Of a stretch of DNA of 64,000 nucleotides, positions 453-24,709 are shown one piece after another (the stretch's first letter is position 1; each line of letters starts with the position of its first letter). Under the pieces are notes generated by a model. It was not told the origin of the DNA and made no database searches. It saw only the letters and a program-made list of their open reading frames with translations. Both the position numbers and the translations under genes were made by a program. The DNA is taken from contig JAAYAD010000065.1 of assembly GCA_012719545.1 (NCBI GenBank), forward strand, positions 1-64,000, in the 5' to 3' direction. Origin of the DNA: Clostridiaceae bacterium. Lineage in GTDB: Bacteria; Bacillota; Clostridia; DSM-8532.

Positions 453-695
453 TTATTTTTCCTTCCCTTTACTTTCAAAGGTCTTATTTAACTCATTAAT
501 ATCTAGTCCCTTGACTGTTGCAGCCGAGAGATTCTCATTCCTTATTTCTTCGTAAATCTCCTTGCGGTGAATGGACACGCTTTTAGGGGCATTAATGCCT
601 ATACGGACCTGGTCCCCCTGAACATCTATAATGGATATTTCTATATCATGGCCGATTATTATTGCCTGACCTTTTTTCCTCGTTAATACAAGCAT
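453..695 (-). CDS. csrA: Carbon storage regulator CsrA
   Basis: Small dimeric RNA-binding protein of 80 aa. It opens [15 protein letters not shown], has the conserved [19 protein letters not shown] core (residues 31-49) and ends in a charged tail, as in Firmicute CsrA. In Gram-positive flagellates CsrA represses translation of flagellin mRNA and is sequestered by FliW. It is the last gene of the flagellar run, 105 bases after fliW. A GGAGAGG ribosome-binding site precedes the ATG. Function is secure from sequence and context; its target in this organism is inferred. Confidence 0.97.
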
Positions 696-800: not shown

Positions 801-1226
801 TCAATTCTGGTACAGGTAATAACGGATAGGAAGGCTTTCATCCTTTTGGATAATCTGCTTTCCAATCTTTTTCTCCACATTTATTAATATGGGAGCCTTC
901 AAGTTTACCCTGGTTTCTTCAATTTTTTCAGGTATTACGACAACTGCAAGAGTCATTACGTTGCCGGAATCAGTGATTTCAAGGAAGTTAACATCATCAT
1001 CGTCTACATCAACGTAGTAATTGGGATATATGGAAAAGGGGTCAGTCACAACAAAGCAGAGATTGGGATCCTCCGCACTCTGGAGCCAGAAAAAGAGAGC
1101 GGCAGGATCATTGCCGATAAGGACAAATTTTTTATTATTTTCAAAACCGGGAATACCCATGGGAAAATTAATAAGCTCATCTTCCCCAATGTTTATTACA
1201 CCAAACTGTGCGGTTTTAAGTTCCAT
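801..1226 (-). CDS. fliW: Flagellar assembly factor FliW
   Basis: Cytoplasmic protein of 141 aa, the usual FliW length. Family features visible are FGVINIGEDELINFPMGIPGFE near the N-terminus and the run FFWLQSAEDPNLCFVVTDP at residues 45-63. FliW binds flagellin or CsrA in turn and so couples flagellin level to CsrA repression. It lies between flgL (41-base gap) and csrA on the same strand, the standard Firmicute arrangement. An AGGAG-type site precedes the ATG. Confidence 0.96.
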   Translation of the reverse strand: MELKTAQFGVINIGEDELINFPMGIPGFENNKKFVLIGNDPAALFFWLQSAEDPNLCFVVTDPFSIYPNYYVDVDDDDVNFLEITDSGNVMTLAVVVIPEKIEETRVNLKAPILINVEKKIGKQIIQKDESLPIRYYLYQN

Positions 1227-1267: not shown

Positions 1268-2206
1268 TTATCTTAAGAAATCAACAAGGGAAGGCTGAAT
1301 AACGCGGGAACCTGTTGCAAGGGATGCTCTATATACATTTTCTTCATTCATAAGATTCATTATTGCTTCAGCTATATCAACGTCTTCATTCTTGCTCATA
1401 AGATTGGTAAAATTAACATTATCATCATCCAGGCGATTCGCTGTAAGCTCAACACGATTCATGCGTGCACCAAGGCCTGCCCGTACTCTTAAAAGGTTAT
1501 TAAGCTGTTCGTCTATATTTCCAAGAAGGCTTGACAAAGCTTCTTTGTCATCATTGTCCATTGCTGTCATGACCTGGTCAAAAACATCTACAAAGGCACT
1601 CTTAGTAGGAGGTATCGGAGGTACCTCAGAAGGATTTCCTGCGGTAGCAGCCGCACCATTATTGAAAAGATCGCTTCCGGGCACATTGACGTTAATGTAA
1701 TCGCCTATGCCTATTTCATACATGAGCTGTTCATCATTGTCAATATCTATGTTAAATTCACCATCTTCATTGAGAAGAGGCTTATCGGTCTTGAAGCCTG
1801 AGAAAATATAGCGCCCTGCGTAAGTGGCATTGGCCAAATTTATAATCTGCTTTTTCAGCTGCTCAGTTTCGGCTTTAATTTTCTGAAGCTCTTCCGGAGT
1901 ATTTGTTCCATTGGCAGCCTGGTTGGTGAGTTCACGGAAACGGTGTACTACTTCCGTCATCTGCTTCATGGTAGACTCGGTAATGTCCATCCATGATATT
2001 GCATCTTCAGTGTTGCGCTTATACTGCAGAACTTCGGCAACATCTGTCCTTAATTTAAGTGATTTTGATGCCACAATTGGATCATCGGCAGGTATGCGTA
2101 TTTTTTTGCCTGTTGCCAGCTGATGCTGATATTTTTGAGTCCTGTTCAGATTATTTGAAAGATTCAGCATCATATTGTTTATAAGCATATTATTAGTTAT
2201 TCTCAT
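1268..2206 (-). CDS. flgL: Flagellar hook-associated protein 3 (hook-filament junction)
   Basis: FlgL of 312 aa forms one of the two rings joining hook and filament. It starts MRITNNMLINNMMLNLSNNLNR, matching the flagellin-like N-terminal coiled coil (about residues 1-140). It ends with the matching C-terminal helix (about 255-312, ENVYRASLATGSRVIQPSLVDFLR). The central 165-245 segment is variable and contains a proline-rich PPIPPT. It is 32 bases downstream of the second flgK gene. It has no signal peptide, as expected for a type III export substrate. Confidence 0.95.
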   Translation of the reverse strand: MRITNNMLINNMMLNLSNNLNRTQKYQHQLATGKKIRIPADDPIVASKSLKLRTDVAEVLQYKRNTEDAISWMDITESTMKQMTEVVHRFRELTNQAANGTNTPEELQKIKAETEQLKKQIINLANATYAGRYIFSGFKTDKPLLNEDGEFNIDIDNDEQLMYEIGIGDYINVNVPGSDLFNNGAAATAGNPSEVPPIPPTKSAFVDVFDQVMTAMDNDDKEALSSLLGNIDEQLNNLLRVRAGLGARMNRVELTANRLDDDNVNFTNLMSKNEDVDIAEAIMNLMNEENVYRASLATGSRVIQPSLVDFLR

Positions 2207-2238: not shown

Positions 2239-3933
2239 TTAAATGCCGAGGCGGTTTACAAGCACATCCAGAACCTCACTGTATGTCTGTATCATCTTAG
2301 CTGCCGCTCCATAAATCTGCTGATATTTAACCAAATTAATCATTTCCTCGTTCAGCGAGACTCCCGATACCGACAGGCGCCGGTTTTCAAGCTGGATCAT
2401 TATGTTTTCCTGTATCTCCATGTACAGGGTAAATTGCTGACCATCAACACCCATGCTGGAAACCAGGGTTTTAATATAATCCTCGGGAGTTCCTTCCATA
2501 AACATGTATGGATTATGGCGCAATTTCATAATTTCCAGAAGGTTCTTATTGTTGGATACTTCACCCTCAGTGTCAGTTGCAGCAATATTATTTGTAGGGT
2601 CACTCTCAATGTCCCAGCTTATGGAGAAGTTTCTGGCAGTTATAAATGCATATCCTGCTTGTATTTGGTCTATTGTCAGGTCAGATATATCTAAAAATTC
2701 ATCAATTTCCTGTCCATCCGGTTTTCCGGCTCCACGCATCAGAGCTATGAAAGCTTCGCTGCTCATGGGCTTTCCGTCTTCTCCAAGCATCGTAAAGAAT
2801 CGGATACCTATATCCGGCGCCTTTGTGTCATTAGTATCCGGATACAGCACGTAGCCGTCGGCATGACCTTTGCCGTCCTCATATGTCTTTGTTTGGCCAT
2901 TATATATAATTCCTTCATTAAAGGCCATGGCAAAAACCCGTACAAATTCGTTCATTTTTCTCTGGTAGTATGGGATTCCTTTGTACTCGGGGCTTTTTTC
3001 GCCATTTAAGCCCACCATTCCATCATTGCCATCCCTCATATCGAGATAACCTTTAAGTTCACCGGATTTGATATTTACCTTATTTCCATCCTCCCAGGAA
3101 ACCTCATAAAGGTTATTGATATCCTCTGCATTAAGGTTGGTTGTTCTGGCCTCACATTTAAGATGGACTACATTATCGTGGTCTACCAAAGCCTTGCCGC
3201 TGATTGTTACCATAAACCGTGTTTCCGGTTCACCGTTAGGCAGCTTAAGGCCTGTCTGAACTTCATACGCCTCTATATTTACCAGTCGTGAAAGCTTGTC
3301 CACCAGATAATCTCGTCTGTCTCTTAAGTCATTGGCTTTATTGCCCATTACCTCAAAGTTATATATCTGCAGATTCAGTTCCCTTATCTGATCTGCAAGG
3401 TTGTTAATTTCCTCCACCTTGGAATATACCATATTGTTCAGATCTTCCTGCATATGGTCAAAGTGGGTTGCAACACTGTTAAAATATTTTGCGACAGCCT
3501 TGCCTCTCTCCATTACCATTGCTCTGGTAGCCTCACTTGAAGGGTCTGTGGACAATGTCTGAAGAGCATTGAAAAAGTCGCTTATTATCTTGGTATAGCC
3601 TGTATCACTGGGTTCATTGTAAATGGCCTGCATCTCCTCAATAATGGTTGCCTTAACCAGCCACTCCCCATAATATTTTGATTCGCTCCAGTATTTTTCA
3701 TCCAGATATGTATCTCTTACACGATCTACACTAACAACGTCACTACCCATGCCAAGCATTCCTGCACCACTTGCCACAAGAAGGGGGCGGGCAGCAGTCT
3801 GATTAATTACCTGCCTGGCATAACCGGGAGTATTTATGTTGTCTACATTATGAGAAACGTTGGCCAAACCTCTCTGAGAGGAGTAAAGGCCGCGCAGTGC
3901 AATTTCCAATCCCATAAAGGTGGTGTTATTCAT
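2239..3933 (-). CDS. flgK: Flagellar hook-associated protein 1, standard-type paralogue
   Basis: HAP1 of 564 aa, exported by the flagellar type III system to the hook tip. The N-terminal rod/hook motif is present (GLEIALRGLYSSQRGLANVSHNVDNINTPGYARQ is interrupted here only by normal family variation). The C-terminal motif is SVSGVSLNEEMINLVKYQQ near residues 520-540. The length is in the normal range and no foreign domain is visible. A longer FlgK lies 39 bases upstream. Two FlgK rings are not usual, so one copy may be conditional or specialised. GGAATGG precedes the ATG. Confidence 0.94.
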   Translation of the reverse strand: MNNTTFMGLEIALRGLYSSQRGLANVSHNVDNINTPGYARQVINQTAARPLLVASGAGMLGMGSDVVSVDRVRDTYLDEKYWSESKYYGEWLVKATIIEEMQAIYNEPSDTGYTKIISDFFNALQTLSTDPSSEATRAMVMERGKAVAKYFNSVATHFDHMQEDLNNMVYSKVEEINNLADQIRELNLQIYNFEVMGNKANDLRDRRDYLVDKLSRLVNIEAYEVQTGLKLPNGEPETRFMVTISGKALVDHDNVVHLKCEARTTNLNAEDINNLYEVSWEDGNKVNIKSGELKGYLDMRDGNDGMVGLNGEKSPEYKGIPYYQRKMNEFVRVFAMAFNEGIIYNGQTKTYEDGKGHADGYVLYPDTNDTKAPDIGIRFFTMLGEDGKPMSSEAFIALMRGAGKPDGQEIDEFLDISDLTIDQIQAGYAFITARNFSISWDIESDPTNNIAATDTEGEVSNNKNLLEIMKLRHNPYMFMEGTPEDYIKTLVSSMGVDGQQFTLYMEIQENIMIQLENRRLSVSGVSLNEEMINLVKYQQIYGAAAKMIQTYSEVLDVLVNRLGI

Positions 3934-3972: not shown

Positions 3973-6030
3973 TTAAGCTCCAAGTCTGAACAAGATTGTC
4001 TCAAGCATCTGATCTACAACATTAATTACCTTGGAGTTTGCGTTATATGCGTATTTAAATTTAATCATATTGGTCATTTCCTCATCCAGGGAGACACCCA
4101 TGACAGACTGGCGGATATCATCGGCCTGTTTTACCAGGTTTTGATAGCTTTCCACCATGGTCTGAGCTTCATATCCCTTATTGCCTACCTGCAAAATTAT
4201 GTACTGGTAATAAGTATCAAGGCTCAGTACCTTTCCATTGCCCCTCATAAGGTCTTTATTTCTAAGGTCGGCTATAAGAAGGGCTATTCTGTTATCTCCG
4301 TTGGCATCCTCAAAACCTGCAACTATATTATTAACATCTTTCAAATCATCGCTTAACTTGATATTGCCAAGCTCCATCGGGCGGCTGCCTTCAATGGCTT
4401 CAAAGAAATTGCCGCCTGCGTTTCCATTCAGAGTTATTCCAGAAGAATGGATCCTGTTTACTTCTCTGGCCATTATATTAATCAATGCATTAAGCTGCTT
4501 TCTTACTGAGGAAATAATATTGAGATTATCTGGAATGGAAGCCATTTTTGTATTTACATCCAAGTTAATATCTGATGATATGTTTTCAAACAGACTCTGG
4601 AAGTTTGTGGTTCCATCCAGGGTATATAATTTACCGCCGGTGTTTTCAGTAAGATAATTCCATCCTTTTTCAGTTCCATTACCGACAGTGTGATATGCCG
4701 GATCGGTTGCCACCGATACTGTCATACCCAGACTTTGAAGTTTGGACAGGTAATTTGAGAAAGTTGTATCGTCTGTCAGCTCTTCATCGCCGTTTATGCT
4801 TTCGTTTGTAAATACCAATAAATATTTGTTGGCATCTTTAGGGTAATTATGTCCGGCTATCGCATTTACTACTTTTTCAAAATTATTGGCATTATTGCTG
4901 CTGGGTGTTGTTGGTATTCCGTCTAGCAGCAAATCAATATCCTTGCCGCAATTGGTAATAACCAATGGATCTGCAGGATCCGCTTCATTTCCATAGACTA
5001 CAAGCCTTATGTTATAGTCAAGGCCTCGGCTTTTAAGATCATTTATGAGGTTATTTACCTGATTTCTGACATTGTTAAGATAGCTGCCGCTGGTATCTGA
5101 CGCGTCTATGGCTATCGTAATATCGGCAGTTGTATTGGGGGTACCGTTATCGTAGTTTCCTTTTGCGCCGTTTACCTCACCACGGGCTTCCAATAGACCC
5201 CTTATTATGCCCTGACCAACCTCCAGGTCTATATCCCCTGCAGTGGTTCTAAGCACCGGTTTGTAGAAATGGGACAAATCAGCGTTGGGAACTGCAGCGA
5301 GCTCGTAATACTCTCCCCTGCTTACCAGATAATGACCGCCCACAAGTATATCCATGCTTCCATCAACGTTAAGGTAGGTTTCAGCGTTCAAAAGGGTTGA
5401 AAGCCTGTCTACCAGAAGGTTTCGCTGATCATAGTAGTCATTGGGCTTATTTCCTGCCGCTTCCGCGCTCATAATTTTTACATTAAGTTCAGCTATCTTT
5501 TCGGTTATTTCATTTACTTCTTCAATACGCAGCTTCAGTTCGTTGTTGAGATCCGCCTGAAGCTTATTGAGCTGGCTTCCTACATGATTGAGGTAATTAA
5601 CAAGTGAATCTGCGCGCTGTTTAACAAGGGCACGAATAGTAAGACTTTCAGGTGCCTTGCTGAGTTCCTGGAATGCGTCCCAGAAATTATTCAGTGCTGC
5701 CTGGAACCCCTTCGTCAAAGGTTCGCCCAAAATTTGCTGAAGATCTTCGATAGCCTTGTTTCTGGTTTCCCAATATCCAAGGTTATTGCTTTGTGTACGG
5801 TATATATTGTCATTAAAGAGATGGCGAATCTGGCGAATTTCCTGTACATCTACTCCCATCTCGACTACCCAGTTGCCAATTTGGCGGGGTACAGAAGAAG
5901 CCATAATGGCACTTTGCCGTGAATAACCCACTGTGCCCAAGTTTGCAACATTATGTCCTGTTACCTCAAGGGCCTTCTGGTTGGCCCGCAAGCCCGATAC
6001 CGCCGCTCCTAAACCAAAATTCATACTCAT
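3973..6030 (-). CDS. flgK: Flagellar hook-associated protein 1 with an inserted vWA domain
   Basis: A 685-aa FlgK. Residues 1-285 form the usual N-terminal half, with GLGAAVSGLRANQKALEVTG and GHNVANLGTVGYSRQ. Residues about 500-685 form the usual C-terminal half, with MGVSLDEEMTNMIKFKYAY. Between them, about 300-490 (DNA 4561-5133), sits a vWA-like domain. It has ITIAIDASDT with a MIDAS-like D309-x-S311-x-T313, then LRSRG-type helices, YLLVFTNES, and LGMTVSVATDP followed by NTGGKLYTL. FlgK proteins often carry variable surface domains, but an adhesive or metal-binding vWA fold is unusual. The domain would be displayed at the hook-filament junction. The frame is continuous, so this is not an assembly chimera within a broken gene. 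Confidence 0.92.
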   Translation of the reverse strand: MSMNFGLGAAVSGLRANQKALEVTGHNVANLGTVGYSRQSAIMASSVPRQIGNWVVEMGVDVQEIRQIRHLFNDNIYRTQSNNLGYWETRNKAIEDLQQILGEPLTKGFQAALNNFWDAFQELSKAPESLTIRALVKQRADSLVNYLNHVGSQLNKLQADLNNELKLRIEEVNEITEKIAELNVKIMSAEAAGNKPNDYYDQRNLLVDRLSTLLNAETYLNVDGSMDILVGGHYLVSRGEYYELAAVPNADLSHFYKPVLRTTAGDIDLEVGQGIIRGLLEARGEVNGAKGNYDNGTPNTTADITIAIDASDTSGSYLNNVRNQVNNLINDLKSRGLDYNIRLVVYGNEADPADPLVITNCGKDIDLLLDGIPTTPSSNNANNFEKVVNAIAGHNYPKDANKYLLVFTNESINGDEELTDDTTFSNYLSKLQSLGMTVSVATDPAYHTVGNGTEKGWNYLTENTGGKLYTLDGTTNFQSLFENISSDINLDVNTKMASIPDNLNIISSVRKQLNALINIMAREVNRIHSSGITLNGNAGGNFFEAIEGSRPMELGNIKLSDDLKDVNNIVAGFEDANGDNRIALLIADLRNKDLMRGNGKVLSLDTYYQYIILQVGNKGYEAQTMVESYQNLVKQADDIRQSVMGVSLDEEMTNMIKFKYAYNANSKVINVVDQMLETILFRLGA

Positions 6031-6041
6031 TCACCTGTTTT

Positions 6042-6548
6042 TCAATATTTGAAGTCAATCATGCTTCTTTTCATTTTACTTGAAACTTCATCGCCTGTTT
6101 TTCCGTATGTCGTAGCCTCAGGCTGCGGAGATGAAAGAAGCTGAATATTGAAATCTATATATTTTAGCGCATTTTCAATTAACTTTCGGTTTATGTCATT
6201 GCGGTCAGAAAGCTTTTTTACTACCTCTGAAAGCTTTTTGCCCACATCTTTAAGCTGTGTTTTATAGGGCTCGTCCACCTTTTCCTCAAGCTTAGACATG
6301 GTAAAGGTTTTATAGTCCTCACCCAGTTCATTGCATATCTGCCGCACTATCTCTTCCCTTGCCTTACTTAGCTGGCTGGTTTTTTCAGCTACCTTCTTTT
6401 CCTCTTCGGTGATATCTGATATTCCTTCTACATCATTACTAACAAGGCAATCAGTCTTTTTTATCCCGATTTCCAATACGGCTGAATATGCTTTATACTC
6501 ATATTGCATTACCTTTATAAGATTTTCTACCAGCGCTTTATCAGCCAT
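6042..6548 (-). CDS. flgN: FlgN-type flagellar export chaperone
   Basis: Alpha-helical protein of 168 aa from the chosen start. It fits the FlgN family by length, helical heptads (YEYKAYSAVLEIGIKKTDCLV) and position directly before flgK (11-base gap). It keeps FlgK and FlgL export-competent in the cytoplasm. The ATG at 6548 is preferred over one seven codons upstream, because AGGAG lies 8 bases before it while the upstream ATG has no ribosome-binding site. Sequence identity in this family is low, so context carries much of the call. Confidence 0.85.
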   Translation of the reverse strand: MADKALVENLIKVMQYEYKAYSAVLEIGIKKTDCLVSNDVEGISDITEEEKKVAEKTSQLSKAREEIVRQICNELGEDYKTFTMSKLEEKVDEPYKTQLKDVGKKLSEVVKKLSDRNDINRKLIENALKYIDFNIQLLSSPQPEATTYGKTGDEVSSKMKRSMIDFKY

Positions 6549-6582
6549 GTCCTCAACTCCTGCGGCCATAATTCTAAAATAT

Positions 6583-6665: not shown

Positions 6666-6938
6666 TTATTTCAAGCCAAGAATTTTTTTTGCTACGTCTT
6701 CGGAGGTTACCTTGTATTGGCCCCTCTCCATTTTCTTAAGAATTTCGTTAACCTTATCCTCTCTTACATCAGGCACTTGTCTTAAAGCTTTCAAGGCAAC
6801 GTTAAAATCATTGGCAATAGTTGAAATTGTCAGTTCATCTTTTTTGGATGATGTCACGTTAACCTTAGCTGCCTTGTCAACTTTTGCTGAATCACCATAG
6901 ATGCCTGACACCTTGGGAATACTTCCCCAAATTTTCAT
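6666..6938 (-). CDS. flgM: Anti-sigma-28 factor FlgM
   Basis: A 90-aa protein that binds and inhibits the flagellar sigma factor SigD until hook completion. The C-terminal half shows the family pattern: KKDELTISTIANDFNVALKAL, then VPDVREDKVNEILKKMERGQY and VTSEDVAKKIL. The N-terminus is disordered and Lys/Ser-rich. The ATG at 6938 is chosen over GTG at 6950, because the GTG overlaps the AGGAG site itself. It precedes flgN in the usual order. Confidence 0.92.
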   Translation of the reverse strand: MKIWGSIPKVSGIYGDSAKVDKAAKVNVTSSKKDELTISTIANDFNVALKALRQVPDVREDKVNEILKKMERGQYKVTSEDVAKKILGLK

Positions 6939-6956
6939 TTCCAATCCCACTCCTAT

Positions 6957-23091: not shown

Positions 23092-24639
23092 TTAATTAAC
23101 CTTTACAAAGTACCACATCTGGCTGTATGAGCCATTATCAGAATTTTGAACACTCAATGCACCGTTTGATGTTGATGAATTGCTTATATCCAGAACTTTG
23201 CCGCTATTGCGGTTCTTGATTTTAAAATAGCCGTTTCCTGCATCAATAAGCTGCCATTGCTGGTTGTAGCCGCCATTGTCGCTCCACTGTATGTTGTTTG
23301 CGCCATCGCTGGTTGACCTTCCATTAATGTCCATGATTTTTCCGCTGTTTACATTTTTGATTTTATAGTAGCCGTTTCCTGCACTTACAAACTGCCACTT
23401 CTGGCTGTTCCATCCGCCATATTCCCATTGCTCGATGTTGGCGCCGTCCGATGTTGAGCCGCCGGCTACATTGAGAGCCTTTCCGCTGTTGCGGTTATAT
23501 ATTACATATGTGGCTGAGGTGTCAGGGAATGTACCTGAACCTGTCTCGCTGTCCTTAAAGGCATTAAGAGCAGTTGTAAATCTTAAAACATTGCTGGATA
23601 TTTTTGTGGTAGCTCCTAGTGGATATGCATCGGGCAGAACTCCTGAATTTGCCTCAGGCTCCCAGTAGAATACACCAAGCCCTTTATTTCCGGGAACTGC
23701 CTTTACTCTCTCTACTACGGCTTTAAGCATGTTGTATGTATTTGTCGGGTTGGACTCAAGTCCGCCCACTTCTACAACCATAACTTCTTTACCGTAGCGG
23801 GATGCCATATCGTTCAGGTTGGTTGCCAGGGCATTTATACTCTGTGTATAGTCTGAACCTATCCAGTATGGATAATAGGACATACCTATAACATCAGTTT
23901 TGCCGCCGTAGGTTGTAATGAAATTATCAAAGAACCATCTGAAGGTGCTGTTGTTATGGCCATTGGCAAGGTGGGTAACTACCTTGGAGGAAGGGCTTAC
24001 AGCTTTTACGGCATCATAGCCGCTGTTAAGAAGCTGTGTCATCTGGCTGAAATTATCATACCTTCCGTCGGGCCACAAAAGGCCTGAATTTATTTCATTG
24101 CCAACCTGCACCCATTCAGGATAAATTCCCACGTTGGCAAGAGCAGACATAACATCATAGGTATGGTTATACACTGCTGTTTTGAGCTGATTAAATGAGT
24201 AATTTGCCCACGCTGCAGGTTTGTCCTGATAAGCCGGATCTGCAAAGTGATCACTGTAATGGAAATCTATCATGATTTTCATTCCCAGCGCCTTTGCCCT
24301 TTGAGCCATCCATACTACTCCTGTTTTATCGGCATATCCTAAAAGGCATGTTTCGGTAGGTGTCTTCTGCCATGTATAGGATGAAGGAGGATTTACAAAG
24401 ACTCTGAGTCGTACGGCGTTAACAGCGAATTCACTCAATATCTGGAGTGCGTCTTTCTGTACTCCGCTGGGATTCTGCCACTTTATGCCCATATCTTCAA
24501 GCTGGTTAAGCCAGCCAATATCTGCACCATATATGAAATTTGAAGCTGCATTTGATACTACAGGCGCTCCGGGTGTTACAACCCCCAGCCCCAGTATCAG
24601 TGAAGTACATAACAGCAAAGCAAACATTCTTTTTAACAT
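23092..24639 (-). CDS. Secreted endo-beta-1,4-galactanase (GH53) with ricin-type CBM
   Basis: A 515-aa extracellular enzyme cleaving the beta-1,4-galactan side chains of pectin (arabinogalactan I). A signal peptide covers about residues 1-31 (cleavage near SNAAS). The GH53 barrel (about 34-365) has the acid/base in VQVGNEINSG (E182) and the nucleophile in MVVEVGG (E290). After a short linker, residues 376-515 form a CBM13/ricin beta-trefoil with three Q-x-W-type repeats (SQKWQF, NQQWQL, SQMWYF). ATG 24639 follows GGAGG by 8 bases. No dockerin is seen, so it acts free rather than in a cellulosome. Confidence 0.94.
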   Translation of the reverse strand: MLKRMFALLLCTSLILGLGVVTPGAPVVSNAASNFIYGADIGWLNQLEDMGIKWQNPSGVQKDALQILSEFAVNAVRLRVFVNPPSSYTWQKTPTETCLLGYADKTGVVWMAQRAKALGMKIMIDFHYSDHFADPAYQDKPAAWANYSFNQLKTAVYNHTYDVMSALANVGIYPEWVQVGNEINSGLLWPDGRYDNFSQMTQLLNSGYDAVKAVSPSSKVVTHLANGHNNSTFRWFFDNFITTYGGKTDVIGMSYYPYWIGSDYTQSINALATNLNDMASRYGKEVMVVEVGGLESNPTNTYNMLKAVVERVKAVPGNKGLGVFYWEPEANSGVLPDAYPLGATTKISSNVLRFTTALNAFKDSETGSGTFPDTSATYVIYNRNSGKALNVAGGSTSDGANIEQWEYGGWNSQKWQFVSAGNGYYKIKNVNSGKIMDINGRSTSDGANNIQWSDNGGYNQQWQLIDAGNGYFKIKNRNSGKVLDISNSSTSNGALSVQNSDNGSYSQMWYFVKVN

Positions 24640-24709
24640 AATCGTAACCTCCGCATGGGTTATCATTAAAAATTAAGGCATATTCTGAGGAACGGAAAGG
24701 ATGTACCTT

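Follow-up and report, generated by a model that had tools for sequence, protein, structure and literature searches.

In Salmonella, 11 copies of FlgK, also called hook-associated protein 1 (HAP1), form the ring at the junction of hook and filament, in which the outer domains are exposed and the D1 helices are buried (PMC12221982). In the FlgK of Campylobacter, one long helix of the D1 domain, D1a, is split by a 14-residue segment, Gly300-Gly313 (PMC5691160). A known case of a foreign domain inside a flagellar protein is flagellinolysin, a flagellin with an inserted metallopeptidase (PMC5595980). No report of a von Willebrand factor A (vWA) domain in FlgK was found in the literature searched, in which subscription journals are poorly covered. 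Such an arrangement is predicted for flgK1, a gene in the window, that is, the whole 64,000-nucleotide stretch of clostridial DNA analysed here (Table 1).

The preliminary description of this DNA had read a continuous 685-residue frame with the two ends of an ordinary FlgK, and this reading holds. The frame is open from its first to its last base and lies on the minus strand, a point absent from that description, and Pfam places Flg_bb_rod at residues 9-36, FlgK_D1 at 95-290 (1e-51) and Flg_bbr_C at 645-680. The product scores 308.4 bits with TIGR02492 (flgK_ends), the FlgK equivalog of NCBIfam, whose cut-off is 170.75, and the AlphaFold model of the whole protein superimposes on Salmonella FlgK (2d4y) with a Z of 33.0 and an rmsd of 2.0 over 339 aligned residues. 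The genes flgN and flgL are nearby, in the order flgM-flgN-flgK1-flgK2-flgL, after which come a fliW-like and a csrA-like gene. Together with the predicted structure, these comparisons show that flgK1 encodes a genuine FlgK, with a predicted vWA domain inserted in its D1a helix. A chance frame or an assembly join is ruled out as the origin of the insert, which recurs in over 30 genomes, drawn from many assemblies and including some in a single contig. The products of flgK1 and flgK2, which stand in tandem, are 37% identical at the N side; tandem FlgK pairs are common in the class, and numerous further genomes within the phylum likewise have two FlgK matches. Outside the flgK1 region, a single gene of the window, at 23092-24666 (minus strand), hints at a diet of plant polymers: read by eye, it encodes a secreted galactanase-like enzyme whose C-terminal units are ricin-like and repeated. 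It is also the one finding that favours the plant fibres suggested earlier as a target of attachment.

Table 1. Features of the flgK1 region, with positions counted from the first letter of the window and residues from the start of FlgK1
Feature	Position	Strand	Basis
csrA-like gene	453..695	(-)	translation read by eye
fliW-like gene	801..1226	(-)	translation read by eye
flgL (HAP3), flagellin-like N and C domains	1268..2206	(-)	Pfam domains; name from gene order
flgK2, second FlgK in tandem, 564 aa, without vWA	2239..3933	(-)	TIGR02492, 301.6 bits
flgK1, FlgK (HAP1) with vWA insert, 685 aa	3973..6030	(-)	Pfam, NCBIfam, whole-protein model
Insert proper, residues 287-504 (218 residues)	4519..5172	(-)	relatives without insert
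vWA fold (predicted), residues 300-498	4537..5133	(-)	AlphaFold models and fold comparison; Pfam VWA barely above cut-off
MIDAS Asp position, Asn409 in the window (lost)	4804..4806	(-)	alignment to integrin alpha-M VITD Asp and L061
MIDAS Thr position, Asn380 in the window	4891..4893	(-)	control vWA L061
MIDAS part 1, D309-A-S311-D-T313, kept	5092..5106	(-)	alignment
N-side linker, residues 285-299 (EVNGAKGNYDNGTPN)	5134..5178	(-)	conservation and alignment with Campylobacter FlgK
flgN, FlgK/FlgL export chaperone	6042..6569	(-)	Pfam FlgN, 2.5e-26
flgM, anti-sigma-28 factor	6666..6950	(-)	Pfam FlgM, 1.2e-15

The limits of the insert are given by relatives that lack it. A 477-residue relative (L032, of genome G046) matches residues 9-286 and 505-684 of FlgK1 with nothing between, residue 286 being joined directly to 505, and the insert is therefore taken as 287-504; three further relatives, of 490-498 residues, have merely about 20 residues at this position. 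The flanks, GLLEARGE on one side and NIISSVRKQLNALINIMAREVNRIHSSG on the other, each correspond to one half of a single long helix, D1a, of Salmonella FlgK. An insertion at the position of D2 was also considered and is ruled out by the alignment of both flanks, as GLLEARG and NIISSVRKQLNAL..VN.iH..G make up one Salmonella D1a helix (PMC5691160). The region of FlgK1 that matches D2 of ordinary FlgK comes later, at about residues 532-603, and is short; since it is still present, the vWA domain is not a replacement of D2. With HMMER, the N-side linker of the insert aligns with the segment that splits the helix in Campylobacter, GRNYSKSEGKYEDG (Gly300-Gly313). In family f24, three vWA-FlgK proteins of 760-779 residues (L103, L104, L127) carry a second, smaller insert, some 27 residues long, immediately ahead of the linker.

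By sequence, the vWA assignment is thin in the window protein alone, because the Pfam VWA score only just exceeds the gathering score (24.1 against 23.8 bits, residues 303-435). The same profile is matched by 12 of 22 relatives from the family, the best at 1.7e-9. What settles the presence of an alpha/beta vWA fold inside FlgK1 is the predicted structure. A prediction for the inserted region by itself, which had been proposed earlier as a check, was made with AlphaFold for residues 292-502 together with 22 homologues, and yields a vWA fold with the strand-helix order of that family (pLDDT 85, pTM 0.86). Compared by VIA-align, this domain model reaches a Z of about 18 with the vWA domain of TFIIH p44 and of about 16 with the I domain of integrin alpha-M, the A1 domain of von Willebrand factor (vWF) and the pilus adhesin SpaC, and its Foldseek matches include the vWA domain of the LapA adhesin. 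The model of the whole protein (pLDDT 76, with poor D0 ends) also gives a Z of about 18 to vWA domains over residues 300-497. The earlier claim of a vWA domain inside FlgK is thus borne out by the models, with an insert that extends beyond the fold on both sides, and D309, S311, T313, the strand LLVFTNES (404-411) and the segment TGGKLY (464-469) all lie where they had been placed.

The metal site of the domain is a different matter. A classical MIDAS has three parts: the motif D-x-S/T-x-S/T, a Thr from the loop that precedes helix 3, and an Asp that follows strand 4. The corresponding positions of FlgK1 (309, 311, 313, 380 and 409) were assigned by alignment to integrin alpha-M and to L061, a free vWA protein having all MIDAS parts, which was used as a control; of these, the Thr position is assigned with least certainty, the integrin alignment leading to Ser378 and the control to Asn380. 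Longer frames of the phylum (1102-1832 residues) that matched the insert profile are other proteins, and they served as MIDAS controls. At the five positions the window protein reads D, S, T, N, N, so that of the MIDAS-like motif described earlier D309, S311 and T313 are present and make up just one of the three MIDAS parts, the first. Among the homologues, D309 is found in 40 of 41 and S311 in 35, and residue 313 is variable; the Asp is present in 7 of 39. All five residues occur in 3 of 40 homologues and four of the five in another seven, and the others have three or fewer. The alignments show a MIDAS eroded across the homologues, and the loss is not universal, as the three complete sites, all in congeners, remain; the outcome that the preliminary description had named as refuting it, loss in every homologue, is thus not what is observed.

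These counts bear directly on the proposal that FlgK1 forms a ring of metal-dependent adhesins, in which the MIDAS of the vWA domain would bind a surface ligand, plant polysaccharide or another. The near constancy of D309 and S311, the congeners with a complete site and the two adhesins among the structural matches, SpaC and LapA, speak for it, but the window protein has Asn at both the Thr and the Asp position, the Asp is rare elsewhere, and the loops on the MIDAS side are less conserved than the domain mean. Adhesion of this metal-dependent kind is unlikely, and this part of the preliminary description is not supported as it was worded.

Conservation within the insert is uneven, with means of 0.78 for the N-side linker, which is its most conserved part, 0.51 for the vWA domain and 0.46 for the MIDAS-side loops, compared with 0.70 for the D1 body. 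Because conservation is high in the linker and falls below the vWA mean in the MIDAS-side loops, what selection has chiefly preserved is not the metal site but the fold and the way it is joined to D1. Alternatively, the variability of these loops could reflect variable ligands rather than the absence of a binding site. A linker beside D1 that is conserved on a par with it, in an insert that interrupts a D1 helix, is also what a structural collar would display, in which the vWA domain has no outside ligand and, by packing on the hook or on adjacent junction subunits, stiffens the joint or tunes it. This reading is possible, if tentative; it is weakened by close relatives in which the vWA domain was lost, on two occasions, and FlgK retained, which indicates that the hook-filament joint can work without the domain.

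The distribution of vWA-FlgK was sampled with a profile of the insert in 33 genomes of the order, 391 drawn from the class and 398 drawn over the phylum, to which the search was confined and whose surveyed genomes are mostly drafts. The search for the same insert in other clostridial FlgK proteins, suggested at the outset, was productive: the insert is present in 28 of the 33 genomes of the order, two more being cut by contig ends, and in 34 of the 391 of the class, which in a combined tally amounts to nine families. Carriers include Clostridiaceae metagenome-assembled genomes (MAGs) and, among named genomes, Thermoclostridium caenicola DSM 19027. The 398 genomes drawn over the phylum contained no further member of the kind found in the window. 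One of the 29 profile matches in the order, from G011, is a FlgK without vWA: this genome is labelled as the same genus, and its sole FlgK (L128) is divergent (35% identity) and groups with family f22, which is due either to gene exchange or to mis-binning. A 900-residue FlgK2 frame of another genome, G007, was dropped as a further insert, since it is 555 residues long from its ATG.

In a tree of the FlgK body, built with the insert cut out, a single clade (support 100/99) holds all 40 vWA rows, along with four that lack the domain: G046 and three rows from a genus of family f187. This implies three changes, interpreted as a single gain and two losses. A PF00092 search of the same genome for a donor vWA domain matched this gene only. 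Over nine close pairs, dN/dS is 0.10-0.25 for the vWA domain and 0.04-0.11 for the FlgK body, a tenth pair (window and L005) being saturated at synonymous sites; the vWA domain is shown to be under purifying selection.

A second vWA domain is found in the FlgK of G379, a genome from another class. The protein (L146:142-2589) has 816 residues and matches Pfam VWA_4 at residues 473-570 (29.0 against 27 bits), and by eye its MIDAS begins D, T, S, the Thr being replaced by Ser and the Asp by Asn. In a congener, G177, FlgK is 600 residues long and lacks the domain, with 66% and 63% identity on either side of it, and FlgK also lacks vWA in three other genomes of the family. Since the domain comes after GRDFF, which is the D2 site, and is absent from the congener, the insertion differs from that in the window in both place and history; going by these sequence comparisons, it is an independent one. 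Among 20 other long FlgK proteins, G379 is the only one in which Pfam recognises an inserted domain, and in L139-L145, FlgK proteins of 730-840 residues, the extra parts have no Pfam match.

Many such long FlgK proteins in the phylum, and a vWA domain that has diverged more rapidly than the rest of FlgK (median identity to the window protein 35%, against 58% for the body), might suggest a neutral or phage-escape decoration: a domain on the surface that has no binding function and is either tolerated or kept variable by phages. The low dN/dS, a fold that is intact over nine families and the second, independent gain of the same fold all argue against this explanation, which is highly improbable.

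The best explanation, to which we assign a probability of about one half, is that the insert points outward from the junction ring as a contact domain without a classical metal site, its partner being external material or an adjacent subunit of the hook or the junction. Judging from its homology to FlgK, FlgK1 would leave the cell through the flagellar type III system with the help of FlgN, refold outside and assemble into the junction ring, where up to 11 vWA domains could point outward. We infer this orientation from size, since a domain of 200 residues hardly fits inside the packed D1 layer, rather than read it from a structure, because the domain sits on a D1 helix that is buried in Salmonella. 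The earlier proposal of a displayed ring is supported to this extent: a vWA fold lies inside FlgK, is conserved in relatives and, by homology, would be carried on the junction ring. Less surely, the domain may act as a protein- or ligand-contact module that needs no classical MIDAS metal site; the vWF A1 domain and the vWA domain of TFIIH p44 also do without one. Against the contact-domain explanation stands the tandem of FlgK1 and FlgK2, either of which may make the standard ring, so that FlgK1 may not fill it. A bolder and rather doubtful extension is that the junction became a vWA ring independently in Clostridia and in another class, at two different sites of FlgK, for gripping a surface or sensing load where the rotating filament has its base.

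Domain insertions are already known in flagellin. What appears new is a vWA domain in FlgK, a low-copy protein with a single defined place in the flagellum; the domain has a fold known from adhesion proteins, is kept in nine families and was gained twice. This raises the question of whether the junction does more than join the hook to the filament. The insert has the same fold as the vWA and integrin I domains (PF00092) of integrin alpha-M, vWF A1, TFIIH p44, LapA and SpaC, but differs from them in its incomplete MIDAS, a feature shared with vWF A1 and p44. With the FlgK/HAP1 proteins of Salmonella (2d4y, 9go6), Campylobacter (5xbj, 9gsx) and Burkholderia (4ut1), FlgK1 has in common the D1 body, TIGR02492 and flgN and flgL as neighbours; in the solved FlgK structures other outer domains (D2, D3) come after the D1a helix, whereas in the window protein the vWA domain splits that helix (PMC5691160). 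Flagellinolysin resembles vWA-FlgK in having a foreign globular domain inserted in a flagellar axial protein and carried outside. It differs in being a filament protein of thousands of copies with a peptidase, as opposed to a junction protein of few copies with a vWA domain, and it has spread by lateral transfer, while the spread of vWA-FlgK looks mostly vertical.
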